In this document: positions 5,968 through 50,457 of the stretch, in pieces
Position numbering within the stretch: position 1 is the first letter of the stretch
Layout: the number at the start of each line of letters is the position of its first letter
Source: Fragilaria crotonensis
Taxonomy: Eukaryota; Bacillariophyta; Fragilariophyceae; Fragilariales; Fragilariaceae
DNA: 50,461 nucleotides
Assembly (NCBI GenBank): GCA_022925895.1
Contig: JAKSYS010000468.1
Location: 1-50,461 of the forward strand
Reading direction: 5' to 3'
Position numbers and translations under genes: made by a program
The notes under the pieces: model-generated
What the model was told of the DNA's origin: nothing
The model's database searches: none
Seen by the model: only the letters and a program-made list of their open reading frames with translations

Positions 5968-7508
5968 AAGTCATATTCATCAAAGAATGATCGGTGACAG
6001 AATCATTGTCATGCATCTGAGAATATGCTCAGGCATTAATAGCACTGCATGACAAAAACCTGTTGAGCAGTTGTCACTCTTGACCTTGTCAGAAATTTTT
6101 GTTGCAGTCCAAGGTGAAGCAAAATGGCAATTACTTGTCCCCAGTTTGAAGCCTAAGGAATCACATTCATTGGAAAATGTTCTGTGATAGAATCATTATT
6201 ATGCATCTGATCAGAGACACAAGAATTTGTAGCACTGCATGACAAAAACCTGTTGAGCAGCTGTCACTCCTGTCCTTGTCATGAATTGCATTTGCTGCCC
6301 AAGGTAAGGTAAAATGAAAGTTGTCCCCAGTTTGAAGCCCTAGAAATCACATTCATTGCAAACAGTGCTGTGGTAGAATCATTGTCATGCATCTGAGAAT
6401 ATGCTCAGGTATTTATAGCACTGCATGACAAAAACCTGTTGAGCAGTTGTCACTCTTGACCTTGTCAGAAATTTTGGTTGCAGTCCAAGGTGAAGCAAAA
6501 TGGCAGTTGCTTGTCCCCAGTTTGAAACCTAAGGAATCACATTCATTGGAAAATGTTCTGTGATAGAATCATTATTATGCATCTGATCAGAGACACAAGA
6601 ATTTGTAGCACTGCATGACAAAAACCTGTTGAGCAGCTGTCACTCCTGTCCTTGTCATGAATTGCATTTGCTGCCCAAGGTAAGGCAAAATGAAAGTTGT
6701 CCCCAGTTTGAAGCCCTAGAAATCACATTCATTGCAAACAGTGCTGTGGTAGAATCATTGTCATGCATCTGAGAATATGCTCAGGCATTAATAGCACTGC
6801 ATGACAAAAACCTGTTGAGCAGTTGTCACTCTTGACCTTGTCAGAAATTTTGGTTGCAGTCCAAGGTGAAGCAAAATGGCAGTTGCTTGTCCCCAGTTTG
6901 AAACCTAAGGAATCACATTCATTGGAAAATGTTCTGTGATAGAATCATTATTATGCATCTGTTCAGACACACAAGAATTTGTAGCGCTGCATGACAAAAA
7001 CCTGTTGAGCAGCTGTCACTCCTGTCCTTGTCATGAATTGCAGCATTTGCTGCCCAAGGTAAGGCAAAATGGCAGTTGCTTGTCCCCAGTTTGAAACCTA
7101 AGGAATCACATTCATTGCAAACAGTGCTGTGGTAGAATCATTGTCATGCATCTGAGAGTATGCTCAGGCATTTGTAGCACTGCATGACAAAAACCTGTGG
7201 AGCAGCTGTCACTCCTGTCCTTGTCATGAATTGCAGCATTTGCTGCCCAAGGTAAGGCAAAATGAAAGTTGTCCCCAGTTTGAAGCCCTAGAAATCACAT
7301 TCATTGCAAAACGTGCTGTTATAGAATAATTGTCATGTATCTGAGAATATGCTCAGGCATTTATAGCACTGCATGACAAAAACCTGTTGAGCAGTTGTCA
7401 CTGTTGACCTTGTCAGAAATTTTGGTTGCAGTCCAAGGTGAAGCAAATGGCAATGACTTGTCCCCAGTTTGAAGCCTAAGGAATCACATTCATTGTCATG
7501 CATCTGCA
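5968..7508. repeat. Satellite array: eight ~188-bp monomers of two alternating types
   Basis: The anchor word GCACTGCATGACAAAAACCTGT recurs, allowing for occasional substitutions, at about 6042, 6232, 6418, 6608, 6794, 6984, 7177 and 7366, spacing 186-193 bp. Odd units carry GAGAATATGCTCAGG before the anchor; units 2, 4 and 6 carry CAGA-CACAAGAATTTG instead, so the array is a dimeric higher-order repeat of about 376 bp. Units 7 and 8 both have the first type before the anchor and differ after it, suggesting a recombinant edge. A truncated copy of the unit end runs to about 7508. The array is non-coding, and the monomer length is close to one nucleosome repeat. Confidence 0.88.
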
Positions 7509-7587: not shown

Positions 7588-9672
7588 TGGAATTCTGTGC
7601 TGGTTGGATTTGCTGCCGGTTTGTGTGCTCGTATGATCACAGACACTGCATGGTACGTAGCAGAGTCTGCAATCAGACTTGGAGATGCAGGAGATGATCA
7701 TGTAAATGTTTCTTTCAGATGCATTGGTGATGTTCATGACACCCTAGGATTGTTTGTAGTGAGCTTACTCATCGGTTGAATCACAAGTCAATGCACAAGC
7801 CCCAAATTGTATACAGGGTGCGGGGTCCCCTTGTATTGCAAAATCTGAGTGCTACATTGGAGATGCAGAACAAATCTTCTGTCAAAGACTGTCAAGGGTG
7901 TATCATAAATGTTTTTGACACCCTAGGATTGTTTGTTGTGATCTTACTTGTTGGTTGAATCACAAGTCAATGCACAAGCCCCAAATATACAGGGTGCTGG
8001 GTCCCCTTTGTATTGCAAAATCTGAGGGCTGCACTAGAAATGCAGAAAAAATGTTCTGCCAGGGTTTGTCAAGTTTGCATTGATGATATTGACGGTATCC
8101 TTTGATTGTAGTGGGGATATACACCCATTGACTAGTGTGCAATTCAGTGTGTAATTTGCACCAATTGCTGATACAGGGCTTTCACGTAAATGAACATTCT
8201 GCAGTCAGATATTAATATTCTGCAGAATTGATCTGTTGTGTTTTGATGCATATGTATGGATTGTATTGATGGCATCCTGAGATCCTCTCAATCTTTTATG
8301 CTTATTGACTTCTTGAAGATTCAATTATGATGCCAAAATGCTAACAAAAAAATACGCAAAAATGATCAATACTCAATCAATTTTGGATTTTGAAAAAATC
8401 CAAAACTGGCATTTACTCCATCAACAAACTCCTGAAACTCATTTACAGAAGTTCCGGTAACGGAAGTCGATGCTTGGGTTGTTATAGTGCAACTGATCAG
8501 CTCAGAACATAAAGTACTTCTGATTTGTGTAACTACAATACTAGTAGATAACATGTGATCGCATCCTAAATTTCATGTTAACATATGTCGCTAACACCAA
8601 CACTAACTCCCAAAGCGAATATCATTGCGGGAGCTTCACTCAATGAGTCTCAGGCTTTTGATGATGGAGTAAATGCCAGTTTTGGATTTTTTCAAAATCC
8701 AAAATTGATTGAGTATTGATCATTTTTGCGTATTTTTTTGTTAGCATTTTGGTATCATAATTGAATCTTCAAGAAGTCAATAAGCATAAAAGATTGAGAG
8801 GATCTCAGGATGCCATCAATACAATCCATACATATGCATCAAAACACAACAGATCAATTCTGCAGAATATTAATATCTGACTGCAGAATGTTCATTTACG
8901 TGAAAGCCCTGTATCAGCAATTGTGGCAAATTACACACTGAATTGCACACTAGTCAATGGGTGTATATCCCCACTACAGTCAAAGGATACCGTCGATATC
9001 ATCAATGCAAACTTGACAAACCCTGGCAGAACATTTTTTCTGCATTTCTAGTGCAGCCCTCAGATTTTGCAATACAAAGGAGACCCCGCACCCTGTATAT
9101 TTGGGGCTTGTGCATTGACTTGTGATTCAACCAACAAGCAAGCTCACAACAAACAATCCTAGGGTGTCAAAAACATTTATGATACACCCTCTACAATCCC
9201 TGACAGAAGATTTTTTCTGCATTTCTAGTGCAGCCCTCAGATTTTGCAATACAAAGGGGACCCCGCACCCTGTATATTTGGGGCTTGTGCATTGACTTGT
9301 GATTCAACCAATAAGTAAGCTCACTACAAACAATCCTAGGGTGTCAAAAACATTTATGATACACCTCTACAATCCCTGACAGAAGATTTGTTCTGCATTT
9401 CTAGTGCAGCCCTCAGATTTTGCAATACAAAGGGGACCCCGCACCCTCTATATTTGGGGCTTGTGCATTGACTTGTGATTCAACCAATAAGAAAGCTCAC
9501 TACAAACAATCCTAGGGTGTCATGAACATCACCAATGCATCTGAAAGAAACATTTACATTATCATATTTTGCATCTCCAAGTCTGACCACAGACTCTGCT
9601 AGGGCGGTACCATGCAGTGTCTGTGATCAGAGCACACAAACCGGCAGCAAATCCAACCAGCACAGAATTCCA
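7588..9672. repeat. Large inverted repeat with 238-bp spacer
   Basis: The left arm 7588-8423 (836 bp) and right arm 8662-9672 (1011 bp) are reverse complements around the spacer 8424-8661. Outer limits are TGGAATTCTGTG (7588) and CACAGAATTCCA (ends 9672); inner limits are CTCCATCA (ends 8423) and TGATGGAG (starts 8662). Each arm contains direct repeats of about 180 bp marked by CACCCTAGGATTG or its complement: two clear units plus one diverged unit on the left (7739, 7919) and three plus one on the right (9152, 9332, 9508). The extra unit explains the length difference. The structure could form a long hairpin; transcripts would be strongly double-stranded. Confidence 0.9.
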
Positions 9673-24485: not shown

Positions 24486-25385
24486 TCAAGCGTGATCAGT
24501 AATATCGTATAAGATGAGACCAACCAAATGATCCCTCTTCTGCCCACCCAGAATAATCTTAGTACATAGATCAGCGGGATTATCGTGTGTCGAGATGTGA
24601 GCGGTGATACATTCGCCCATGTCCAGAAATTGTCCCCGGACATCGCACACAGCCTGACAATTCAGGCCGAACTTCTTCTTTCTCGAGCACATGAATTTCC
24701 CTTGACTACATCCTATGTTGGAGCAATCTGTCTCGGAAGGCTTATGAGTCCAAATAAGAATGCCATCTATGGCCCCAGCACAGCACCGAAATCCAGCAGA
24801 TGACACTTCTGCAAAACCTGCAGCAATAGATCGCTGTTTCTCTTGGTCATCTGGGTATTTAATTTCAAATCTTGGATGCTGGTTAATAGCATCAACAACG
24901 TACCAGTAGCTGTTGATTGTGTCCGTATGACTGATGCCAAAAGTAGTCATAATGTCATATGTAGAACCGCCCGCAAACCATCGAATTGCGCAGGCAAGTC
25001 GGACATCGGGTGAAATGGGACCATTTGGGCAATACCTTGGAGCGCCTTTCGAGCCACATGCGGCAATGATATATGGACGAAGCAAGGCAGCAAGACGTCT
25101 AAAAGATGTATATGTCATTCGGTATGCCCTCCGGAAGTAGATTCTGCCAAGTTCTTTGTAAATGTCACTAACAGACCTTCGTCTGCGTGGTCGACATCGT
25201 CGCCGGACTGGGTTAGATAAAAGAGGATTTGGCATATTTCTTCGCAATCGTTGCTCAAGATTAGTGACATTTTGAACTACAACAGCTGCCGAATTCACGA
25301 CTATGTTCGAGACTGTAGCTGAATGTTGTAAGTCAATTGAGTATGACACTCTTCTTCTCCTTGCCTTATTGCGGTTGGCAGTCAT
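24486..25385 (-). pseudogene. Truncated PIF/Harbinger transposase fused to a copia polyprotein tail
   Basis: An open frame of 299 codons from the ATG at 25385. Residues about 70-255 resemble the DDE_Tnp_4 nuclease of PIF/Harbinger elements: RLACAIRWFAGGSTYDIM, GISHTDTINSYWYVVDAI, AGFAEVSSAGFRCCAGAIDG (first catalytic Asp) and CSRKKKFGLNCQAVCDVRG. The family then expects a GSVHDS block with the second Asp and later the Glu; instead the sequence changes at DMGE (near 24622) to ISTHDNPADLCTKIILGGQ and KRDHLVGLILYDI, which reads as the very end of a copia RNase H. Two catalytic residues are missing, so transposition activity is not expected. The clean in-frame junction is odd for random decay; a chimeric host protein is possible but unproven. 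Confidence 0.72.
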
Positions 25386-37491: not shown

Positions 37492-38124
37492 CGTATTCCA
37501 GGGAAGAAACTGTCCACTTATCCTATCAATGACCAGCCGGATCCTTCTCTGGTTACTATCGATCTGCCTCCTGTGGACCCACCTAATGGGGTTCGTGTCG
37601 ATCACGCGCCCCACCAATGTCGAAAGTCATCGTCACTGCAAACGACCCCGTTAGGTCGCGTCGATGATATCAATACATGGATTCAATGGTCATCAAATTC
37701 GTTGATGCAAGTTTACAATCAATCCCTAGTGGAACTGATGAGGATCGATTCCATTGAGGAGGTACACACGCACAAGCGCTATGCTGTTCTATCACACGGA
37801 ACTCAGGATGATCCAATCTTTTGCTACTCCAACGTCGCAGCACGTGATGCATTCCAATACACTGAAGACGAATTTTATCAACTCCCCAGTCGTTACTCTG
37901 CCCCAGGAGGAGGTGACCGACAAAGTCGACAGAAAATTATGGACGATGCCAACAATTCCAATCTCTGGATCATCCCGCATGGCATTCGCCAACGTAAGGA
38001 TGGGAGCTTGTTTGAATTCCGCGATGTTATCTTGTGGAATGTCTACAATCCGCAAGGCGTGCGAGTTGGTCAAAGTGCTGTTTATGATCAAAATAAGGTT
38101 TCTAATGTTGAAAGTCACCCATGA
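37492..38124 (+). CDS. MEKHLA-domain (PAS-like) protein, 5' end undefined
   Basis: The open frame runs from just after a TAG at 37489-37491 to the stop at 38124, but the first in-frame ATG (37705) lies inside the conserved domain, so the true start is upstream in another exon or frame. The domain spans most of the product: WIQWSSNSLMQVYN, YAVLSHGTQDDPIFCYSN, FQYTEDEFYQLPSRYSA, then GIRQRKDGSLFEFRDVILWN and VGQSAVYD. This matches the MEKHLA family, a PAS-related fold found as the C-terminal domain of plant HD-ZIP III factors and as stand-alone proteins in bacteria and algae; ligand and role are unknown. Here it appears to stand alone. Copia copy B ends about 200 bp upstream and may have altered its promoter or first exon. 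Confidence 0.75.
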   Translation, partial: RIPGKKLSTYPINDQPDPSLVTIDLPPVDPPNGVRVDHAPHQCRKSSSLQTTPLGRVDDINTWIQWSSNSLMQVYNQSLVELMRIDSIEEVHTHKRYAVLSHGTQDDPIFCYSNVAARDAFQYTEDEFYQLPSRYSAPGGGDRQSRQKIMDDANNSNLWIIPHGIRQRKDGSLFEFRDVILWNVYNPQGVRVGQSAVYDQNKVSNVESHP

Positions 38125-38246: not shown

Positions 38247-39287
38247 CTACTCAGCACCAGCAATGTCGTCCATCTCTGGCAAGTCAACCAAGTCATCTAC
38301 ATCGGCAGTCGCACCGCCCATTCCACCAGGCATTCCTGCTCCCATACCACCAAACTTGCTCATTAGTTTTTGCAAGACAGGGCCAACTTCTGGATCTGCC
38401 ATGAGTTCTTGCAGCTTCGCTGGATTGCTCATCAGACCCATGGGTCCGCCAGGTCCGCTCATAAGTTCTGAAAAGGCCGCAATAACTTTGGGGTTTTGCA
38501 TAGAGGCAGCGAGTTCGGGGTCACTTAGGAGACTCTCCATGAACCCAGGAGGCATGCCACCCATACCTCCAGGCATACCACCCATGCCTCCAGGCATACC
38601 ACCTGGCATCTCACGTGCCGCAGCCTTTGCTTCATTCGCCTGTTCCTCTCTTGCTCTACGAATCTCTTCAGCACGCTTTCTCATCTTTTCTTCTTCTTCC
38701 ACCTTGGAGCTTGCTCTCGCTTTCTCAGCTTCCACATGCTTCTCGCTACATTCCTTCAAATCATCGACCGTTCCCTCATCAAAATCAATTTGTTGCGCCT
38801 GCGACAAATCCTGCAACGCCGCCTCCCACTGGCCCAGAGCCTTGCGGGCCTTGCCTCGGACGCGAAGTGCCTTGGCGGAATCGGGATTCTGACGCAGGGC
38901 TTCGTCGCAATCACGCACGGCGGCCGCATACTGCTGCAGTTTCAAGAGGACGGTCGCGCGGTTGGCGTACAAGAGTGCAGACGCGGGTGCCGCCAACACG
39001 GCACCCGTGTACTTCTCCAACGCTTCGGCGAGCTTGCCTTCGGAAACCAAATCGGCGGCTTCCATTTTAAGATTGGATTGTGTGTCGTAATCTTCACCGG
39101 ATTCGTAGAGAGGAGGCATGTCTGGCGAATCATCCATGGGCTCGTCAGCCTCTTCGTCGGCCGAAGCCTTGCCTTGAAAGTCGTCAATGATTCCTTCTAA
39201 TTCGGTAATGTAGTCCTTCACCACCGCTTGTTCGGCAGCATCGAGGTTGGAGAGAGCATCAAGAACGTTCTGAGGAGTTTGAGGCAT
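38247..39287 (-). CDS. Hsc70-interacting protein (Hip/ST13-type cochaperone)
   Basis: 346 residues from the ATG at 39287 to the TAA at 38247, frame intact. Domain order follows Hip: a short N-terminal region (LDALSNLDAAEQAVVKDYI), an acidic linker (ADEEADEPMDDSPDMPPL), three tetratricopeptide repeats (about residues 75-180: AADLVSEGKLAEALEKYTGA, SALLYANRATVLLKLQQYAA, SAKALRVRGKARKALGQWEA), a charged helix (EEEEKMRKRAEEIRRAREEQ), GGMP-type repeats (PGGMGGMPGGMGG) and a C-terminal STI1/DP domain (LLSDPELAASMQNPKVIAAF ... PEVGPVLQKLMSKFGG). Hip binds the Hsp70 ATPase domain and stabilises its ADP state in the cytosol. The end DLVDLPEMDDIAGAE is acidic. It is convergent with the MEKHLA gene, about 120 bp between the stops. 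Confidence 0.92.
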   Translation of the reverse strand: MPQTPQNVLDALSNLDAAEQAVVKDYITELEGIIDDFQGKASADEEADEPMDDSPDMPPLYESGEDYDTQSNLKMEAADLVSEGKLAEALEKYTGAVLAAPASALLYANRATVLLKLQQYAAAVRDCDEALRQNPDSAKALRVRGKARKALGQWEAALQDLSQAQQIDFDEGTVDDLKECSEKHVEAEKARASSKVEEEEKMRKRAEEIRRAREEQANEAKAAAREMPGGMPGGMGGMPGGMGGMPPGFMESLLSDPELAASMQNPKVIAAFSELMSGPGGPMGLMSNPAKLQELMADPEVGPVLQKLMSKFGGMGAGMPGGMGGATADVDDLVDLPEMDDIAGAE

Positions 39288-40240
39288 GGTGGAACGGATA
39301 CTGCAGTCAATTTACAAAGTTCAAAGTTCAAATGACAATGCACGCGTGTCGAACGTGTCAAGGAATGAGAAGTGCATGATCGTTTGCGATCTTCTGAAAC
39401 CACTCTTTCACGATCGAAATCCGGTTTTCAGCCGACAGGCAGGCAGGTACAGGTGCGGGCAGCCAGACAGACAGTGACCTCTTTCGTGCTGTACTACAGT
39501 GGCGTCCTAACGTAGTGCGAAGTATGCATACCTGGTACCTGGTACATTGTACCTGGTACAAGTACTATAGCAGGGGAAAGACGAATCCACTGGATTCCCA
39601 GATGTCGCCTCGGCTGAACTACAGCATCCAGCGATATGGCTCAGTGTGCGTTGTGAATGTCATTATGACTGCGTTGGATATTTTGCTCCTACGTGTCTGT
39701 ATGTGGACTCTAGTACATGTAGTAATACGAGGTTTCTACAGGCGGCGTAGTGGGCTAAAAACGTAGTGGTTATGACGTTAGTGTAATCCTAGGAGTCTAA
39801 CGGCTCCTGGATGGCTTTCACTAGCACAGGCCTGTCCCGTGTCGTCTGCTGACGCTGTCGCCGTGTAGGGTTGACAGTGGTGGGGCCATATCGTTCGGAT
39901 GCAGACGGTCTTGCCGGTGCACTCAAAAATTAAAAAGTTTATGTGTGAATGTTGACATATACCATACGGGAATGGATATGTGTTCATGTTTTAGAATTAT
40001 CGGCCTTGCGTATGTGGTATATGTGAGACCAACAGGGGTTGGCGTTTGTGGAGCAGTATGAGAAATGTGTACCGGTTTGGCATAGAGAAAGTCGTTGGTT
40101 ATGACTTCATAATTTGAATAGATTGTGATCGTATGTATCACTTATGATTTTATATGCTATGTTGATTGATGTTTGTTTTTATTTTGAGGATGGTTTGCTT
40201 AGTGCCTGAATGTTGGCATGCGGGCTAATGAAAGGTATTA
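39288..40240. other. Intergenic region and left flank of the recombinase retroelement
   Basis: No convincing gene. The first part (39288-39580) is the upstream region of the Hip gene and has a GTAC cluster at 39520-39570 (CCTGGTACCTGGTACATTGTACCTGG). From about 39900 the plus strand becomes G/T-rich like the element to the right, so the untranslated 3' end of the retroelement probably lies in 39780-40240. I could not find its terminal repeat. Confidence 0.4.
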
Positions 40241-41377
40241 TTACAGAAAGTTGGGGATGCAGCTTGCATCAGCTAGGGCGTCATTATGGCGGCGCGAGGT
40301 GACTGCTAAGTTGCGAAGGTAAGTCATAAATGCATTCGACTTCCACCTGAGCAAATGCTTGATTTCCATCTCATGGAATCCCATTGCGTATAGGGTGGTG
40401 CAAGCGCCAACGCGTAGGGAGTGACTCGACCACATTTGGAGTTCTGCTCTGTTGGTGACTGGGTCTAGGTTGAACAGTTTTGCTGCGGCGCCTCGGATAC
40501 AATTTTCGACATCGGCTGATGTGATGTTGCATATTCGGCTGTCTTGGTGTTTGTAGATGCTGAGTGGGAGCTTGGGATTAGATTTTGCAAGCTTGGCGTG
40601 GCGAAGCAGGATTTGCATGAAGTTGCTGACGAAGCAGACGCTTGGGTTTTTGGTATTGCGGACGAACAGCTTTTTCTCTCCGTTTTCGCCGTTTTTCTGT
40701 TCTTCGAATCGGATGCGAATGCAGCCGACTTCGTGGGGGTTTTGGATAGCTGTTTGGAGATTCAAAATTTGGTTTGATGCTGTGGTGCATTGGACGTCTT
40801 CTGGCGTGAATGCATATGCGTTGTCGAAGCGGTTTAATTGGTGGGAATGCAAAGTTTGGTTGCATGAATTTGTTTGCATCCATTCGATGCCACGACATCC
40901 TGCGTAGAGATTGCAGATTGTCCAGTTGGCCAGTGCTGCCTCAAGACAACAATCATCCTTTCTGGTGGCGGCGTTTGCCGCAATATGTTTGTGCATCTCG
41001 AGGGTAAATGGTTCTCGGCGGTTCGGTACCGATTCCCATCGCTTTTGTTCTTCGAGTACTTTGGAGATAACGGGCGCTAATTTGGTATCGGCAGTTGATC
41101 GGAATCGGGGGTCGATGTCTCGGTATCGACCGAGAAATTTTGCGACATCGAGTAAGTAGCTTGCAATGGTGCTTGATTTGAGCGATCTGCAGTGGAGTGA
41201 TGACCCCGTAGCAAGGTGGGTTGCATACAAGGCCAGCTGGAAGTTGGCTCGCTCTTGCGGTTGGTTGGCAAGAGTCCAGTCATCGTCCAATTTTAGAGAG
41301 TGACAAAAGATGAGGTAGTGGATCCTGCGGCTTCGAATTGTCCGAGCGACTTTGGCAGAGTTGTTGTTGCGTTCCAT
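40241..41377 (-). CDS. Tyrosine recombinase of the retroelement
   Basis: 378 residues from the ATG at 41377 to the stop at 40241, frame intact. The N-terminal half is a helical SAM-like core-binding region (FQLALYATHLATG, STIASYLLDVAKFLGRYRDI). The catalytic half carries the first Arg in NLYAGCRGIEWM, HSLRVGACTTLYAMGF with the His-x-x-Arg pair, and LLRWKSNAFMTYLRNL, where Trp replaces the second His and Tyr is the predicted nucleophile. The set R, HxxR, W, Y is complete for the family; a candidate lysine lies in VRNTKNPSV. It would integrate a circular DNA copy by site-specific-type recombination, normally without target duplication. It overlaps the RNase H frame by 85 bases in a different frame, as in other DIRS-type elements. 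Confidence 0.85.
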   Translation of the reverse strand: MERNNNSAKVARTIRSRRIHYLIFCHSLKLDDDWTLANQPQERANFQLALYATHLATGSSLHCRSLKSSTIASYLLDVAKFLGRYRDIDPRFRSTADTKLAPVISKVLEEQKRWESVPNRREPFTLEMHKHIAANAATRKDDCCLEAALANWTICNLYAGCRGIEWMQTNSCNQTLHSHQLNRFDNAYAFTPEDVQCTTASNQILNLQTAIQNPHEVGCIRIRFEEQKNGENGEKKLFVRNTKNPSVCFVSNFMQILLRHAKLAKSNPKLPLSIYKHQDSRICNITSADVENCIRGAAAKLFNLDPVTNRAELQMWSSHSLRVGACTTLYAMGFHEMEIKHLLRWKSNAFMTYLRNLAVTSRRHNDALADASCIPNFL

Positions 41378-44116
41378 CGTTCGCTGAACAGCCTGGATTC
41401 CAGGTTGGATAGCAATTCTGGATGCGGTCGGAAATAGCGATAGGATGCGAGTTTCGGCTCCTTCTCGAATATCTGTTGGTGGCGGGATGCCGGAGATGGT
41501 AAGTGAGTTGGTGGGCGGGAAATGAAATCAGCAAGTGAATTTGTTTTTCCTGCAATGTGGTTGCATGCCACGGCAAGTGTTGTGCGTGCAAGGAGGGCCG
41601 CGTATGTGTGGACCATGTGTTGTCCTTTTTCCGAGCGAGAGGAAACTTTGTGAGCCCAGTTTTGTGACGGGCTGTTGTCAGTTCGGATTAGCAGTTTTGC
41701 TAAGCTCGGGATGCCGGCAGGGAATTTTGCAGCAATTGTGGGCTGGAGGGTGTTCTCTTCCATGATTGTAATGACGGCGGCGAGCTGAAGAATGACAATG
41801 GTGAATTCCATAATATTGATATGGATTGTCTTGTCGGCAATTGCCTGCTTGGTTTTTGGTGACCAAAAAATGTCGAACCAGAATTCGAGTTCGTCACAAA
41901 AGGCTCCGCCGGCTGTTAGGCAGGCGTCGCCGATGCTTGTGAACTGGGCATCTCTGGGGATAACATGACCAATCTGCATTTCCCATTTATAGTGGGGATT
42001 TGCAATGAGGCTGTGGACATGTGTGAGCTCGCTGATGACAGACGGCGGGAGTGGAATTTTTACTTTGTGAGACCAGAGCATTGCCGCCATGTCGCGCGCG
42101 ATCATGGAATCGATGCGATGGTGGAGGTGTTTTGGAAGTTCGGCTTTGTACTTTTTGGTTTTGCCTTGGCGGCTGATGTACCCTCTGACTTGGTTGAATC
42201 GTTGCTGGATTGCTCGGCGGAGAGCATTTTGGAAGCCGAAGAAAAGGGTTCGGCCTTGTCGGTTGGCGCGCGACGCATCGGCAAGTGTACCGTGCAAGGT
42301 TGCTGCTTCTAAGATGGAGCAGTTGTCTTTGTGGATCCATTCTTCAAGCATTTCTTGAAGGGCAATTCGTTTGTCGGTTGGGAGGGTGTAGGTGAGGTTC
42401 GTGTGTTGAACTGCCAGCCTACGACTCTTCGTGTGTGACTGTACGCCGACCCAAATTTTTCCCAAGAGATTGGGTCGGGGTATCGGCCGTCAGGGTACCC
42501 GAGTATTTCGTACAGGCTGATTATGCTTGCGGCTGCTGCTCTGTGCATCAGTTCGGAGATGTCCCCGTACATGTTGTCGTCAACATGATGATTGTACCTC
42601 GGGGAAATGCGGTTTCCTTGTTTGTCAAAAACTCCTCGATTTTTTGAGTCGGGAATTGCTGTTGCAAATTGTTCTCGTTCGGCTTCGGTTGCTGGGGGAG
42701 CAAAAGATATTTGAGGCATGTACTTTGCGGCGCGTTCGATGATATCAGGTTCATGCCACAATGTTTGGGCCAATTGTTGGCGGGCTCTGGCTAGGGGCTC
42801 CCAGTTTGATGGGCTTGTTGTTCCCCCGAAATTGACACCGGTGTGCATGATCAGGGTTTCATGGGAGATTGCGCTGTGCATAGCCACGAGGTTGGGGTTA
42901 TACTTTACTCGGGAAATGCGCATTGACATCGTCGTCACCTGTGTGGCGATCGTTTCTTGGGTATGAAATAGCTAAATTCCAGTGCCAGATGCAGAATTGG
43001 TGGAACGAGTCTGCGAAATGAAGAGCTGGCTCATTGACTTTGCTCGTCCAATCGTTGATTGCATGTGCTCCGGCCCATGGGCGAAAGCTACAATCGGAAA
43101 CGGGACGTGGTTTGCGCCTGTGGTGCAGGATGTCGACGAGTCCTTGCGGCGTTAGGTGGGTGTTCAAGGTAAAATGGACTAATGCTGGGTCCATGATCAA
43201 GGTCAGTCCTCGCTTGCTCTGTTTGACGATTGTGCTTTCGAATGCTTTCGGATTTTCTTTCGCTGACTTGTGGTTCCCATATTTCAGGTAGGCATTGAAA
43301 TTTTCTTGAGTTGCCTCCGCATTGCAATGCAGGAGCTCCAGTTGTGAGGATTCTGTGCACATCGTCGTACACGTCGAGTGTTAGCACCGGTTTCAGTTTG
43401 GCCAAAACTTTTTTAATGTCGATATGTTGGTTTACATGGGGCCCCCCAATGAAGCGAACAACTGTTGCCATGTCGCCATTATAGTGCAGAGCACACGCTG
43501 AAGTCATCGCTTTCCAGTCTTCTCGGATGGTGGCGGTGTTTTCCCAGTCGGTTTGGTATCCTTGTAAACTTCGGAAATCGAGTGGAACATATTTTTTTCT
43601 GAGTTGTTGCAGTTGTCGGACGCGGTATGATGCCTTTTCCAGTACTTTGGTTGCACGACAGGACAGGAAACCGCTTTTTAAAAGCGGCAGTAAAATGTGA
43701 CAGAACGATTTTGCAGCATAGAACGATTGATGCAATGAGTCCTTACCGAATGGTTGGTTGAGTTGGATTTGCACGCTGGTTGGGAGGATTGTTGAAACGA
43801 AATTTTCGAGTCGCCGGGTGGTAAGTTTGCCTGGTTGGAGCCATAATGCTTGCGGTGGGGTTGGGTTTTGTGTGAGGCTTGCTGCGGAGGTGCTCGCATT
43901 CGATGTTTCCAGCATGTTTTTGTCAGAGTATTTAATACATTCTGAAATGACAGGCGGTAAATCTGAGGTCGCGTTTCTCGAATTTTGTGGAGACTTTTGC
44001 GTGTCTTGGTTCGGTACTGGGAGGAGCGGTACTGGTGCTGGTACTATCACATTTGTGTCGGCAGGTACATTTTGGGCGAGAGCTGTATACTGATGTGGTG
44101 TCTTTGTGAGTGGCAT
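41293..44116 (-). CDS. Divergent reverse transcriptase with RNase H, frame broken
   Basis: The ATG at 44116 (MPLTKTPHQ) follows an in-frame TAG near 44174. The N-terminal 150 residues are Pro/Thr-rich linker. RT blocks follow: KRGLTLIMDPALVHF, RPVSDCSFRPWAGAHAINDW, motif A GDDDVNAHF then RVKYNPNLVAMHSAI, motif B-like HTGVNFGGTTSPSNWEPLA, the catalytic box YNHHVDDNMYGD, and a primer-grip and connection region with NTR..LTYTLPTDKR. The RNase H has D in IGDACLTAGGAF, E in INIMEFTIVILQLA, D in IRTDNSPSQNW and a final D in GKTNSLADFISR. Frame changes occur near 43325, 42928 (within motif A) and 42397, each fitted by a one-base indel. The protein resembles a diatom/stramenopile RT group that I recall without a name; it is not copia or gypsy. 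Confidence 0.75.
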
Positions 44117-44272
44117 CCGGACATGATGTGTTGGAGGAATTGCTAGTTGGTGACTTTTCAAGAGGAGCGGTACTACGGTGTAAGTACGAACGAAGTTTGG
44201 AATGTGAGTTTTTTTATTTTTGGTTTTATCGGCTCACTTTGTTCGGCATGCAGATTAAGTTGAGATTGTTGT

Positions 44273-46738
44273 TTAGTTACCTGTTGGGTTTGCCCAAGTG
44301 GCTGCTTCGGTTGTCCATTCGACTGAAGCTTGGGATTGGACCCAGGAAACCATTTTGTTTCTGATTTCGTCGCTCACAGCGTTCGTGAGGTTGTGTGGGA
44401 AATGAAAGAAACTGCACGTTGGATAAGTGCATTGTTTGCCTTCGTAGGCGCTGCGGCACAGGGAGGGTGAACTTATTGGGTCTGGTGGGATGTGGGAAGA
44501 TCGGACCTGGGTGGAGCAGCTTTGTTGTTGGGTCTCCTGCGATCTGTTTAAGGATTGTTTTTCCTTGTGGGGTTGGCTGCCCGGGGATGTTGTCGATTAA
44601 ACTGCTGGGGTTTGGGGTCCCCGTTGTTGGAGTGCGGGGAATGCGGTTGTTAGTTGCAGTTCCTGTGCCGGTTCCGGTTCTTGTTTTTGTTGTTGGCGAC
44701 TCACCAGGGACGTCGGCTTGAGCTGGTCGTTTCTTTGGAGGTTCGGGTGGTTGGAACGATTTAAAGATGAAAGATGCCTCTTTGTAAGGTCCTGCGAGCA
44801 TGGTTAGAATCGTGCTTTGGAGATTGAGTCGGAGTTGTTTGCCTTGCAATTGTGGGAACGTAAAGATGTCCGGCGAAATGGTTCCGGTAGATAAAGCTTC
44901 ATGGTATCCTGGGCGGCGTGCAATAGCTACAAAGCCGGCCACTGTGGAGGTAAGGTCTTGGACGACGTTGAACATGAGTTCTTTAGCGTTGCGATGGACG
45001 TTGAACCATTTTCGTCCTTCCGATGTTCTCATGATTTTGTCGAATTCGACAATTTCGGACCAAATTGTTGGTGGGTTTTCTTCGTTGATTGTGACGATTG
45101 TATTCATGAGGCAATAGAAATTGCCGATGGTTGTGTTGATGTCTTCGATGCTTGTCATTTTTCCGAAGTGGTAGAGGTCAGTTGTCTTGGCGATGGTGCG
45201 TGCGCTGGACTCTTCGACTTGCTCTTGTTGTGTGACTCGCATGGCTCCTCCATGCGGGTTTTATATTCGGCTGTCCATGTTCGGGCGGGTGCGAGATGGT
45301 GGAATGCGAAATGGGTTTTGATTCCTTCGGGTTGGAGGACGGTGTGTTGGTGGGCCCATGTGGCCGTCCGAATGGCGGCTGTGAGTGGTTGGTCGAACAG
45401 CTCAGCTTGTAGGTTGCTTGCTGAAGCGAAACGGTTGTCGAGGTTGTGCATCTCTGATGCGACTGCTTCAATAGCAGATTGGAGGAGTCTGGTTGCTTTG
45501 CTGTTCTTGTTTGCTTTTAGGACTTGGATGAAGCTGCTGTCGAGGACAGCTTTTTTGAACTTTTTGGTGACTGTTCCGTCTTCGTTTGTTTCGTTGATGA
45601 TGTTTGCGAAGAGGATTTCGTAAAAACTCTGGTGCTCCTTTGCTTCGCTTGCCTGTTCGCGTTCGGTGCTCGTCATTGTTTTGGATGAGTTTTCAGTGAT
45701 GGCGGAGGTTAGGCCAATGAGGATAGCTTCGACGTTGCTAGTTGGTGTGATGGCTGCTGCTGTTTCAGATCTTTCTGGCAAATGCTTTGGTGGAGTTGTG
45801 AATGCAACTCGTCGAGTTAGTTTGCTCCCATACACTATATGCTTTGTCTTTGGCGGCGAGAACGTTGCTTGTGACTTTTCGGTACAATGGGTCGTTCGAG
45901 TTAGGAAATTGACGATTACTGTAAAACGGCTGACGATGTTGGTTTCTGGAGTGAAGACTTCAGAATCGAGGTTGGCGTATGTGAAAAGGGTATCCCGGGC
46001 TTGGATAGAGTAGTTTTGGAGGTTGGTAACTCCATACTTGATGGAATCGAACCACAAGTAGAATTCATCCAAATTTGGGGCGCCAGTCATGTCTTTGATG
46101 GGTTCGGTTGTGGTTGTGTTGATGATAGTGTCCTTGGGGATACTATACCCACCGGAGAAAGGGAAGATTTTTGGGATGAGTGTAATGCATGGTGCGTCGT
46201 CAGGGTCACTGATTTCGAGTCCGAGGCGATCGGGGCCTGGAGGAATTACAGCTTCTCCGTCTGCTGGAGCTGGTGCATCTTCGGAGATTGGGTCAGAGGT
46301 AGAGATTGCCATGTTGAGGAGAGTTGGAAGACTCTTCATTGCTGCGACTGTAATGCATTGCCCTTTGACATCCCTCATACGGATGGTTACTGGGCAAATG
46401 ATATCCATCGCGTCCCCGAGGGAACCGGCGAAGACTGCATCAGTTCCTTTGGCCGTTGGGAATGGACAGGAGAGTACAGTGAGAGTTGGAGATCCGTTTG
46501 GCACATCCATGAGGAAAGCCATCTGGTTGACGAGACCGCTGTCACAGAGGTTAGCGAGGCGGGCGTCAGCTGGCAGATCCTTGGAAAACGTAGATGCGAT
46601 GCGGAGAGCTTGGGTAGGATCAGCTGCGTAAGCGTTTGCGAAGCTGTTGAGCTTTGCGTCGCTGGCGGCTTGGTGGGCGAGGTCACGAAGGGTTGGTTCG
46701 ATCATCGGGTTTGGGACGGTTGGGTCGATAGTCAACAT
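44273..46738 (-). CDS. Gag-like protein of the recombinase element, C-terminal CCCH finger
   Basis: The ATG at 46738 opens a 527-codon frame to 45155. The next frame picks up at about 45242 (MRVTQQEQVEESS) and runs to about 44460, and a third frame ends with NPTGN and TAA at 44273. Read through, this is one protein of about 820 residues. No enzyme motif is present in the first 700 residues, which are rich in Thr, Pro and Ala and predicted mixed helical. Near the end, in the third frame, C-R-S-A-Y-E-G-K-Q-C-T-Y-P-T-C-S-F-F-H gives the spacing C-x8-C-x4-C-x3-H of a CCCH zinc finger (about 44408-44458), suited to binding RNA. Position upstream of the polymerase and the nucleic-acid-binding tail suggest a Gag role. 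Both frame changes look like single-base indels; a programmed frameshift is an alternative for the first. Confidence 0.6.
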
Positions 46739-47915
46739 AGTTAACTTGGCTTATGGATGCTTTGGAGGCTTGGACGGATTGCTGAGATTGCTTTTTTTGT
46801 GAGAGTTGTGGTCGAAGTGGGTTTGTTTCACACTTTCGTATGCTTTGGGGGTAGAGATTGTAGTAGGAATTGGTTGTGTGTCTGGGGCTCAATAATGAAA
46901 GTGGGTTTCGATTTATATATAGAGCTACTCGTGATTGTGTGTTTCGGGTGTGTTGGATATCCGTGTGTTTTTGGAATAGCATGAAATTTCATTGTTTTGT
47001 TTTTGCGGTCATTGTGGCCTTAGTTTTTCAACGAGCTTTTAATGCTATTTAGTCTATTTTGGTTGTTATCGATAGCTTACTTAAGGGATTTACTGTGATA
47101 TATAATTGTAAGTAGCACAATTATTTAAAGGTGATACATGTGTATGACATTTCGATTGTTGTATCTAGATGTTTAGTATGGGTGGATATGGGTTTGTACG
47201 GAAGTTTGTACTTGCAATCGTATGTGCTAGTGTTATATTATCAGTATGTGTGTTTGGAGTTTTTTACTCGGAAGTGAGCGGGTTTTTCGGAAATGGCGGC
47301 GCCATCATCATGGGATACTTGATTGATGTTTGTTGGTCAGTAGAGACTCGGAATAGTGCCTTTATAGCACTATTGGCTTGGAGACTGTGTTTTGATCATC
47401 GGTTGGTCGATGTTTTGTTGGAAATCGCAGGATTGGGGTTGTTGTTCGATGCTTTATCAGAACATTTTTTGGCGGCGGCGCCGATCGCAGGATTGTGTGT
47501 TGTTGGAGGGTTGTTCGCTATGAACATTTTGCAGTTTACCACACTTAATGTGGGTTTTTGTTTTATTTGTTTGTTGTGCTCGTAAGATAGCGAAAAAATG
47601 GTTAGGCAGATGTATCATCACCATTGCCATCGATTCGGTCACTCTTGAGAAAAGTGAGTGATTCGAGTCTCCATCCAAATACCGTCATTTGCCGCCAGTT
47701 GTACTGTGTTGTACTACTGGCTGTCCTTGGTCCGTCGGTCTCCACTCCATAGCAACTATGTCTGTAGGGCACTTGTAATGTACTGTTGCGCTAGTACGCT
47801 TACTGCTGTATTGCCTACAGTCTTATCTGTAAAAGGGACACGGGACATGGGACAAACCAACACATGAAACATGAAACCACTCACTTGCCAGTAACGAACG
47901 CAAACGTCTGTGGCC
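46739..47915. other. Right flank of the recombinase element and upstream region of the GGTase gene
   Basis: 46739 to about 47600 is the probable 5' untranslated end of the retroelement, G/T-rich on the plus strand. It holds a plus-strand open frame at 47169-47585 (138 codons, ATG to TAA) with about four hydrophobic stretches (KFVLAIVCASVILSVCVFGV, IAGLCVVGGLFAMNIL). Such frames arise easily in G/T-rich DNA, so I do not call it a gene. ATCGCAGGATTG occurs twice (47427 and 47483) and GGCGGCGCC twice (47297 and 47475). From about 47640 the composition returns to normal, and GTACT words appear at 47700-47790, upstream of the start at 47916. Confidence 0.4.
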
Positions 47916-48962
47916 ATGGACACTCCTCCCTTTGACCGGAAACGCCACATCAAGTACTTCAGCGCCTGCCTAAGATACCTCCCAAGCGCATACGATCGAC
48001 TGGATACTAATCGATTGACGTTGATACACTTCGCCGTGCATTCGTTGGATCTATTAAATGCCCTTCCGTCGTACAATTCCGACCAATGCTTGACGGAAGA
48101 ACAAATGTCCCAACAAATCATTCAGAAAGAAGTAATCATCGACTGGATCTACTCCTTACAATTATCCACTGGTGGATTCGTCGGAGGTACATTTCTCGGA
48201 CCCGACGAACACAACCACACTCACAGTCATGTTGCGATGACGTACACGGCCTTGTGCACGTTGGCCGCATTGGGAGACGACCTGTCGCGGGTCGACAAAC
48301 CCAAGGCTGTGGCATCGTTGAAAGGACTACAACGTCCGGATGGATCGTTCCAATGCATTCAAGTGGGATCAGAAAATGATATGAGATTCCTGTATTGTGC
48401 TTGCGTCATATCGTACCTACTGAATGACTGGACGGCTATTGACAGGGACAGGGCTGTTGGCTTTGTGCAGTCTTGTATTGCGTACGATGGTGGAATCTCG
48501 CTTATTCCAGGACAAGAAGGACACGGAGGCTCCACCTTTTGTGGGGTTGCTGTGTTGATGCTATTGGACCGTATGGACGTGTTGGATTCGGATCTGTTAG
48601 TCCATTGGTGTGTTCATCGTCAAGTCGCAGGTATGCAGGGCCGCCCAAACAAGGCGGAAGATACGTGCTACTCATATTGGATTGGCGCGACTCTTATTTT
48701 ATTGGGACGGGCCGATCTGTTGGACAACCAAGAGCTTCGCCGCTATGTTCTTAAGTGTCAAACACAAATGGGCGGATTCAGCAAAGTTATGGGGTCAAAT
48801 CCAGATATTATGCACGCCTTTTACAGCATGTCATGGCTGAGCCTATCGTCGGCTTACAACGAAGATGAGGAGGAGGAAATGCATCTCAAGGAAATGAATT
48901 GCACTGTTGGGATTTGCCAAGATAGGATGCAAGTCTTCCATTGTGCACGTGAGGTACCATAG
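47916..48962 (+). CDS. PGGT1B: Geranylgeranyltransferase type I beta subunit
   Basis: The ATG at 47916 (MDTPPFDRKRHIKYFSACLR) opens an intact frame of 348 codons. The protein is the catalytic beta subunit that, with the FNTA alpha subunit, attaches geranylgeranyl to the cysteine of CaaL proteins such as Rho-type GTPases in the cytosol. Prenyltransferase alpha-alpha barrel repeats are visible: LQLSTGGFVGGTFLG, LQRPDGSFQCI, CIAYDGGISLIPGQEGHGGS, RQVAGMQGRPNKAEDTCYSY and CQTQMGGFSKVMGSNPDIMH. Zinc ligands are Asp and Cys in EDTCYSYW and His in MHAFYSMSWL. HTHSHVAMTYTALCTL together with QGRPNKAEDTC favours type I over farnesyltransferase or Rab geranylgeranyltransferase. A C-terminal acidic tail follows. 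The substrate lipid comes from isoprenoid synthesis, to which the mevalonate kinase in this window also contributes. Confidence 0.92.
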   Translation: MDTPPFDRKRHIKYFSACLRYLPSAYDRLDTNRLTLIHFAVHSLDLLNALPSYNSDQCLTEEQMSQQIIQKEVIIDWIYSLQLSTGGFVGGTFLGPDEHNHTHSHVAMTYTALCTLAALGDDLSRVDKPKAVASLKGLQRPDGSFQCIQVGSENDMRFLYCACVISYLLNDWTAIDRDRAVGFVQSCIAYDGGISLIPGQEGHGGSTFCGVAVLMLLDRMDVLDSDLLVHWCVHRQVAGMQGRPNKAEDTCYSYWIGATLILLGRADLLDNQELRRYVLKCQTQMGGFSKVMGSNPDIMHAFYSMSWLSLSSAYNEDEEEEMHLKEMNCTVGICQDRMQVFHCAREVP

Positions 48963-49081: not shown

Positions 49082-50457
49082 TCACATAGTCATTTCCGTT
49101 GCAGTCATTATGACGATACCGCAGATGGTCCCAGCCACCAAGTGTTGGTGGCCCAACGACGTGTGCCGTTTCGCTTCTGGAAACAGCTCATACATCGCCA
49201 CCATGATCATGATTCCCGCAACGAAGGCAAGCACGTTCTCCATATTGAAAAATGTTGATTCGTCCTTTAGTTTTGAAACATCTCGTAGGAAATAGAGGGC
49301 CACGAACGCTCCCAATGGCTCGGCAAGTCCAGAGAGGCTTGCCAAAGCGAACCCCAACCATGGACTGTCTGGCCGCGCGGCTAAGCAAGGTATGGCAATG
49401 GCGATGCCTTCCGGAATGTTGTGAATCATGATACCAATGGTGACGGTAATGCCCAGCTTACGGGATTCCAGTGCCGAGGCTGCCACGGCCAAGCCTTCTG
49501 GAAAATTATGTAGCAGGAGGGAGACGAAGAGCAACATGGCGACTCGCCAGGCACGCTTTTCATCATTGCTGGTGAGATCAGCCCCACTGACCATTGGGTG
49601 AAGGAATTGGTAGTGTTGTTGCTCGGAGCTTCAAACTTCTTGCGACTTCGGGCACCACTAGACGCTTGCGACTTGATTGAGTCCCATTGGAGCGGGTCGA
49701 TGAAATTACCAGTGGCGTCGACATTTGTTGTGATCGCTTCGCCACCAACGAACGCTTTCTTACTATTCAAGTCGTCCTTCTTACGAATTCGAATCGCAGC
49801 AGTCTTGGATTTAACTCGTTGCTCCTGTAAAGCTTTCTCGGCATCATCCAAATCATCGTCTATTACGGTCAACAACATGGATAGTTTCTCCTCCGACGGA
49901 ACTCTAGGGTTGTTTTTCAGTTCGACCTCGATGAGTTCCTCCGGCTCTGGAAACGCGAACCAGCTAAGCGCAAAATACAAGGTCCCTCCCATGCAGAATG
50001 CAACTAATCGCTGCAAGAATTGCTCCAAAGGAACAAAGATGCCATCGTCCGCAATTAGACATTCCGGTCCAATAGAGATGACAGATACCGTGACCATGAC
50101 GGAACCAGCGAGCGCCAGCGAGAAGCTCATGGTATTTGGAGAAACGATGCGATGATTGTTGGCATCTGTGGGATGGAAGAAGACAACGGCAGCCCCCAAA
50201 CAAGTGGACGCCCCGGCGAGACTGGCGAGGTAGAGTGGCATCCATGGGTCATCTTGTTCGAACATTCGAATGGTTTCGTCAAACGAGAGGCCAATCCAAT
50301 CCGCGGCTACCTGATGGGTCAGACCAACAGCAGGGCTTAGCTGAGGGCAGAATGGGATTGCCTTGTTTGTAAGGGCGCAAGATGCACTGTGAACAAGATG
50401 AATGTTTGAAGGCCAAACTCCAGGGTGCACTCTCATCTCCCACAAGGCATTTTGCAT
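49082..50457 (-). CDS. ZIP family divalent metal transporter, frame broken, at window edge
   Basis: The N-terminal part runs from the ATG at 50457 (4 bases from the window end; an earlier start outside is possible) and the C-terminal part ends at 49082. Membrane helices include PLYLASLAGASTCLGAAVVF, FSLALAGSVMVTVSVI and VAFCMGGTLYFALSWF, then a long polar loop (about residues 150-280) with many Lys, Asp and Ser. The metal-binding helices are LLLHNFPEGLAVAASAL and GIMIHNIPEGIAIAIP, the paired HNxPEG signatures of ZIP helices 4 and 5, followed by LSGLAEPLGAFVALYF and a helix ending ICGIVIMTATEM. Zn2+ or Fe2+ uptake into the cytosol is the family role; the motifs are closest to the ZupT/GufA-like branch. 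The frame slips by one base near 49600 (NTTN to QFLHPMVSG). Convergent with the GGTase gene, 119 bp apart. Confidence 0.85.

Follow-up and report, generated by a model that had tools for sequence, protein, structure and literature searches.

In the general model for the retrotransposons of the PAT, Ngaro and VIPER groups, the internal repeats B1A2 serve as a bridge during replication, a DNA circle is formed and a tyrosine recombinase (YR) inserts this circle into the chromosome; in VIPER, the genes stand in the order Gag, YR, reverse transcriptase (RT)/ribonuclease H (RNase H). Elements of all three groups are known to carry split direct repeats (PMC6681497, PMC8547959), and such repeats are considered to have multiple origins (PMC4157794). 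For Ectocarpus, 15 curated Ngaro and 5 PAT-like families have been reported (PMC12477816), and solo AB units are known for the Ngaro of Cafeteria burkhardae (PMC8547959). Here we describe an element of the diatom Fragilaria crotonensis, found in a window of 50,461 bp which is the whole of contig C412 in a genome of 62.1 Mb and 881 contigs. The element is very probably a copy of a split-direct-repeat YR retrotransposon (A1-[Gag, RT-RNase H, YR]-B1A2-B2) with a Ngaro-like build and a very divergent RT-RNase H. This reading is based on the three proteins occurring in order in many copies, on the repeat architecture and on a conserved B|A junction, and also on the lack of target duplication, a near-identical copy elsewhere and purifying selection. 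A description of the Fragilaria family was not found in the open-access literature, a search whose scope was without subscription papers, Repbase and supplements.

Extent, termini and junctions

Comparison with other copies places the element at 39583-47832 on the minus strand (8,250 bp), so that the extent given in the first-pass annotation (40241-46738) was too short; open frames on the minus strand cover 40241-46750. The 5' end is formed by repeat A1 of 245 bp (47588..47832, minus strand) and the 3' end by repeat B of 253 bp (39583..39835, minus strand), which are 100% identical to A1 and A2 and to B1 and B2, respectively, of the copy on contig C321. In the other copies with the 5' end read, A1 opens with TTRCAGATAAGA or with a closely similar sequence. 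The stretch from A1 to the Gag frame is a 5' leader (46751..47587, minus strand), where the longest minus-strand frame is of 101 amino acids (46683-46988).

Fourteen copies were read in detail (the window copy, C321 and 12 more). The C321 copy is 8,775 bp long and has the order A1, open reading frames (ORFs), B1, A2, a 15-nt linker and B2, with A1 identical to A2 and B1 identical to B2. It differs from the window copy by 5 substitutions and 19 gap events across 8269 alignment columns, and it is a second insertion, because its flanks differ from those of the window copy; a near-identical copy at another locus suggests recent movement of the element. B1A2B2 was present in nine of the 14 copies, and A1 was fully read in five of these (C321, C105, C495, C736 and C500, with the B2 of C105 and C500 reaching the contig end), the others being C33, C591, C698 and C844. 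The copies with A1 to B2 span 8.4-9.2 kb. Reading by eye of the five copies with both flanks (window, C321, C495, C736 and C598; C24 was excluded as its 3' end is unclear) gave no target-site duplication in any of them, and no tRNA genes were present in eight insertion loci.

The B|A junction pattern, searched in the genome with at most 3 mismatches, gave 37 matches compared to 2 for the reversed control pattern. Of these, 28 matches at 27 loci are situated 0.6-1.4 kb downstream of the YR, and the junction core GGATTCTTRCAGATAAGA is kept in all 28, even in subfamilies in which the RT-RNase H is 55-64% identical to that of C321. As the core is kept across such subfamilies, the sequences point to the B|A junction core as a functional recombination site. 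The pattern of the A2-B2 linker had 17 genome matches (control 0), nine of them with the B|A junction, one in a remnant in C598 and seven elsewhere; the last comprise one clean solo A-linker-B, four partial repeats and two without a repeat match. The clean solo unit (C87:90628-91141, 514 bp) resembles the SIRE of VIPER and the solo AB units of the Cafeteria Ngaro.

Self-comparison of the five longest copies (C321, C495, C736, C105 and C500) and of the window element showed the direct repeats A and B in the five copies, with additional short internal repeats in C500, and no inverted match in C321, C495, C736, C105 or the window element, the inverted matches of C500 being only short internal ones. 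DIRS-like termini were rejected on this ground, as the copies have no inverted terminal repeats. Direct repeats of at least 25 nt and long inverted repeats at the ends were looked for in the window and not found; the sole inverted pair noted in the window is of 35 nt (71%) with one arm outside the element. The long terminal repeats (LTRs) and DDE integrase that had been called absent at first pass are indeed lacking: A1 and the 3' end do not form an LTR pair, and no match to rve was obtained.

On the model of the PAT, Ngaro and VIPER groups, Gag would package a transcript that runs from A1 to B2, holding the RNA through its CCCH finger, and the RT-RNase H would copy this transcript, using the internal B1A2 as the bridge that restores the split ends. 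A double-stranded DNA circle would then close with a B|A junction, and the YR would recombine this junction into the chromosome without target duplication.

Proteins and their linkage

The Gag-like protein, RT-RNase H and YR all lie on the minus strand, as the first-pass annotation had claimed in placing them in one orientation. The YR frame of the window copy is intact, whereas the Gag and RT-RNase H regions are split into several overlapping frames. In C321 the situation is the reverse, with open frames for Gag (826 amino acids) and RT-RNase H (950 amino acids) and a broken YR frame.

The first part of the Gag-like protein is a frame of 531 amino acids (45155..46750, minus strand) with relatives on 40 contigs, and the second part, an open frame of 327 amino acids (44277..45260, minus strand), also has relatives in the genome. 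The protein has no Pfam match. Near its end, in frame 44273-44596, is a C-x8-C-x4-C-x3-H finger (44402..44458, minus strand). The CCCH finger noted at first pass is thus real, being present in 13 of the 14 copies read (in C591, the 14th, the stretch read was without Gag) and in all six additional copies.

The RT-RNase H begins with an N-terminal part in a frame of 381 amino acids (43088..44233, minus strand), which in C321 belongs to the unbroken frame. The RT up to motif A (42898..43380, minus strand) is seen from the open frame, genome matches and the alignment. Motifs B and C follow (42309..42971, minus strand), with HHVDDN replacing the usual YxDD, and then the RT end, connection and RNase H with its D, E, D, D set (41293..42489, minus strand), both placed by the alignment and the fold model of the C321 protein. 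The catalytic acids of RT and RNase H are conserved across the aligned relatives, and the fold model is confident (predicted local distance difference test, pLDDT, 88.6) and matches the fold of the RTs of retroviruses, Ty3 and caulimoviruses. None of the 36 aligned family members matches any Pfam RT or RNase H model at E<=0.1, and sequence or profile searches of the RT-RNase H against Pfam, NCBIfam and PDB gave nothing or chance-level matches. The Gypsy and LINE RTs from the same genome do match Pfam RT models. BLASTP of single RT sequences against the same-genome Gypsy family gave nothing significant, and the early view that the RT is far from gypsy holds, as there is no detectable similarity to this family or to the Pfam RT models. 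An endogenous caulimovirus-like virus was rejected, since the likeness is limited to the RT fold, and the YR and the split repeats oppose it.

The YR is a frame of 428 amino acids (40241..41527, minus strand) that overlaps the RT-RNase H frame. It matches PF00589 weakly (E 0.0012, below the curated cut-off), and the catalytic residues R, K, HxxR, W and Y are conserved in 40 aligned sequences, in keeping with the complete tyrosine recombinase annotated at first. The YR profile matched only Cre and Tre chains in PDB, with a best E of 0.046. The ratio of nonsynonymous to synonymous substitutions (dN/dS) of about 0.09 indicates that the YR sequences are under purifying selection.

Counted from genome matches of more than 100 bits, which makes the counts lower bounds, there are at least 41 RT-RNase H loci and at least 43 YR loci; the first-pass annotation had proposed such a search for multiple copies. 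The YR is directly downstream of the RT and on the same strand in 41/41 RT loci, and in two metagenome proteins (P0051 and P0178) a single frame encodes both RNase H and YR. The family has many relatives in public sequence, and Fragilaria crotonensis was the only organism name among the matches listed; a protein search gave at least 205 matches at E<=1. Viral contigs probed with the RT, the YR and the divergent RT alignment gave 35, 25 and 20 pattern stretches and no relatives, and prokaryote genome contigs gave 49 pattern stretches and no relatives.

Sixteen further YR matches in the genome, 23-30% identical to the window YR and by eye without an RVT_1 match within 9 kb, are possibly Crypton-like (C22, C40, C52, C98, C114, C212, C333, C338, C372, C384, C542, C571, C597, C665, C715 and C722).

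Affinity and alternative explanations

Several observations weigh against the reading as a split-direct-repeat YR retrotransposon. B1A2-B2 was not shown in five of the 14 copies (window, C598, C429, C24 and C180), among which C180 runs off its contig and C598 retains an A2 remnant. Nine of the 37 junction matches do not follow a YR (a part resemble the beginning of A1, and others may be due to chance), 13 of the 41 RT loci, the window included, are without a junction match, and two of the 43 YR loci (C201 and C458) are without an RT match. No empty site turned up for either insertion, that of the window or that of C321, the search giving their own flanks and one 45-bp match. The fold model of Gag is poor (pLDDT 40.9), and because of this the label 'Gag' rests on position and the finger. 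Profile-profile comparison with the same-genome Gypsy family was not significant (probability 1.8%, E 0.028) and aligned solely the stretch from the RT end to RNase H, so that the case for RT homology is built on the fold and the motifs. The PF00589 match is weak across the family (17 of 40 YR sequences at E<=0.1, best 0.00097), and most dS values are saturated. The window copy itself is probably not autonomous, because its Gag and RT frames are broken and B1A2 is missing, and independent movement would not be expected of it. The likeness to Ngaro is one of build, seen in the termini, gene order and methyltransferase absence, and the circle, transcript and enzyme activities are proposed by analogy with PAT, Ngaro and VIPER, none having been observed. 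The combination of a YR in place of a DDE integrase with an RT-RNase H is that of a YR retrotransposon (order DIRS), judging from the YR residues, the PF00589 matches, the complete RT-YR linkage and the RT-RNase H fold.

Among the described groups, Ngaro shares most with the Fragilaria family: the A1-[ORFs]-B1A2B2 repeats (with A and one B retained in the window copy), the order Gag-like, RT-RNase H and YR, the solo AB repeats and the lack of a methyltransferase, for which there was no match at E<=10 in P0001 and P0002 and none at E<=1 in eight window frames. It may well be, although we do not favour it, that this is an ordinary Ngaro element with a drifted RT, like those of Cafeteria and Ectocarpus, which have the same termini and gene order and no methyltransferase (PMC8547959, PMC12477816) and whose hosts are likewise stramenopiles. 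The differences lie in the RT and RNase H, which escape the Pfam models here but are reported as PF00078 and PF17919 in the Cafeteria Ngaro (PMC8547959), in the CCCH finger of Gag and in the length, about 6 kb for the Cafeteria Ngaro (PMC8547959) versus the span of our A1-to-B2 copies. Absence of an RT match does not by itself establish a separate clade, because Pfam and CDD searches of fungal DIRS/Ngaro found RT domains half as often as RNase H (PMC3783388). Nor does the split-repeat build establish the clade, since more than one origin is assumed for such repeats (PMC4157794). The SGNH hydrolase ORF reported for amphibian Ngaro is not a general requirement of the group (PMC9210276), and no hydrolase match was found in Gag, RT-RNase H or YR. 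With similar reserve, the family could represent a deep branch of the YR retrotransposons, the fifth besides DIRS, PAT, Ngaro and VIPER, with an RT-RNase H that belongs to none of these four clades and with a common occurrence among algae and in plankton. The first-pass suggestion of an undescribed kind of system was not borne out, as split-repeat termini are known from PAT, Ngaro and VIPER and the gene order is that of Ngaro. The DIRS/Ngaro-like elements reported for Ectocarpus and Cafeteria may include the Fragilaria family.

The window copy is without the second B and the internal A2 that are present in other copies. Its single B is probably the product of B1-B2 recombination after insertion. 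It is unlikely, but conceivable, that the copy instead came from an integrated circle with a single B|A junction, in which A...B would be joined directly. Such a circle could arise if the YR recombined the two junctions of a full circle with each other, and the A and B ends of the window copy are clean; however, recombination between the 253-bp B1 and B2 yields an identical product, and the data fit both routes equally. Some of the frame breaks may be sequencing errors, because the assembly was made from Nanopore reads with Illumina polishing (PMC9476933), and some may be real.

A VIPER-like element is very improbable. The split direct repeats A1...B1A2B2 are in common with VIPER and TATE, the methyltransferase is also absent in VIPER (PMC4157794), and the solo A-linker-B units resemble SIRE (PMC6681497). 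The YR is, however, last in all 41 RT loci here, whereas the VIPER ORFs are named in the order Gag, YR, RT/RH in a figure legend (Fig. 2 of PMC6681497), and the finger is C-x8-C-x4-C-x3-H compared to CX2CX4HX4C in some VIPER Gag proteins (PMC6681497). That Fragilaria crotonensis is the sole organism named in the listed protein matches also speaks against VIPER. PAT-like elements share the split direct repeats but carry a methyltransferase, and DIRS-like elements share Gag, RT-RNase H and YR but have inverted terminal repeats, an internal complementary region and a methyltransferase, none of which was matched here. The LTR retrotransposons (Gypsy and Copia) are set apart by their LTRs, DDE integrase and RVT_1/RVT_2 domains: the window frames, the RT-RNase H and the family alignment gave no rve, RVT_1 or RVT_2 match, and a Gypsy element of the same genome yielded RVT_1, RNase H, RVP and rve. 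The alternative raised at first pass, an independent Crypton beside an RT element, can be dismissed almost entirely, because the YR, a feature shared with Cryptons (CryptonS, PMC3212892), directly adjoins the RT inside common termini at every RT locus and is fused to RNase H in the two metagenome proteins, whereas Cryptons are without RT, and the distant YR matches lacking RVT_1 are what little speaks for it.

Genomic setting and meaning

The element sits in the gap between two divergent genes, a TPR/STI1-HOP_DP protein (38247-39311, minus strand) with its start codon 296 bp from the left end of the element and a prenyltransferase alpha-alpha toroid protein (47895-48962, plus strand) with its start codon 84 bp from the right end. 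Because of these short distances, the element may affect the promoters of both genes. Further out are a MEKHLA-domain protein (37492-38124, plus strand) and a ZIP zinc transporter (49082-49630, minus strand). The window also holds a tandem array with a 190/376-bp unit (5994-7495), with related sequence on C598 at about 25054-25215, and a tandem repeat of period 177 (9016-9529; 2.9 copies, 96% matches).

Annotation based on Pfam RT models overlooks this family, even though a genome of 62 Mb carries at least 41 of its RT loci, and the family would alter estimates of retroelement load for diatoms and plankton. The conserved B|A junction offers a direct assay handle for the circular intermediate. 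The new divergent RT-RNase H is also test material for a single versus multiple origin of YR retrotransposons. In case the family is a fifth lineage, split repeats and the partnership of RT and YR would have had either an additional independent origin or a very early one.
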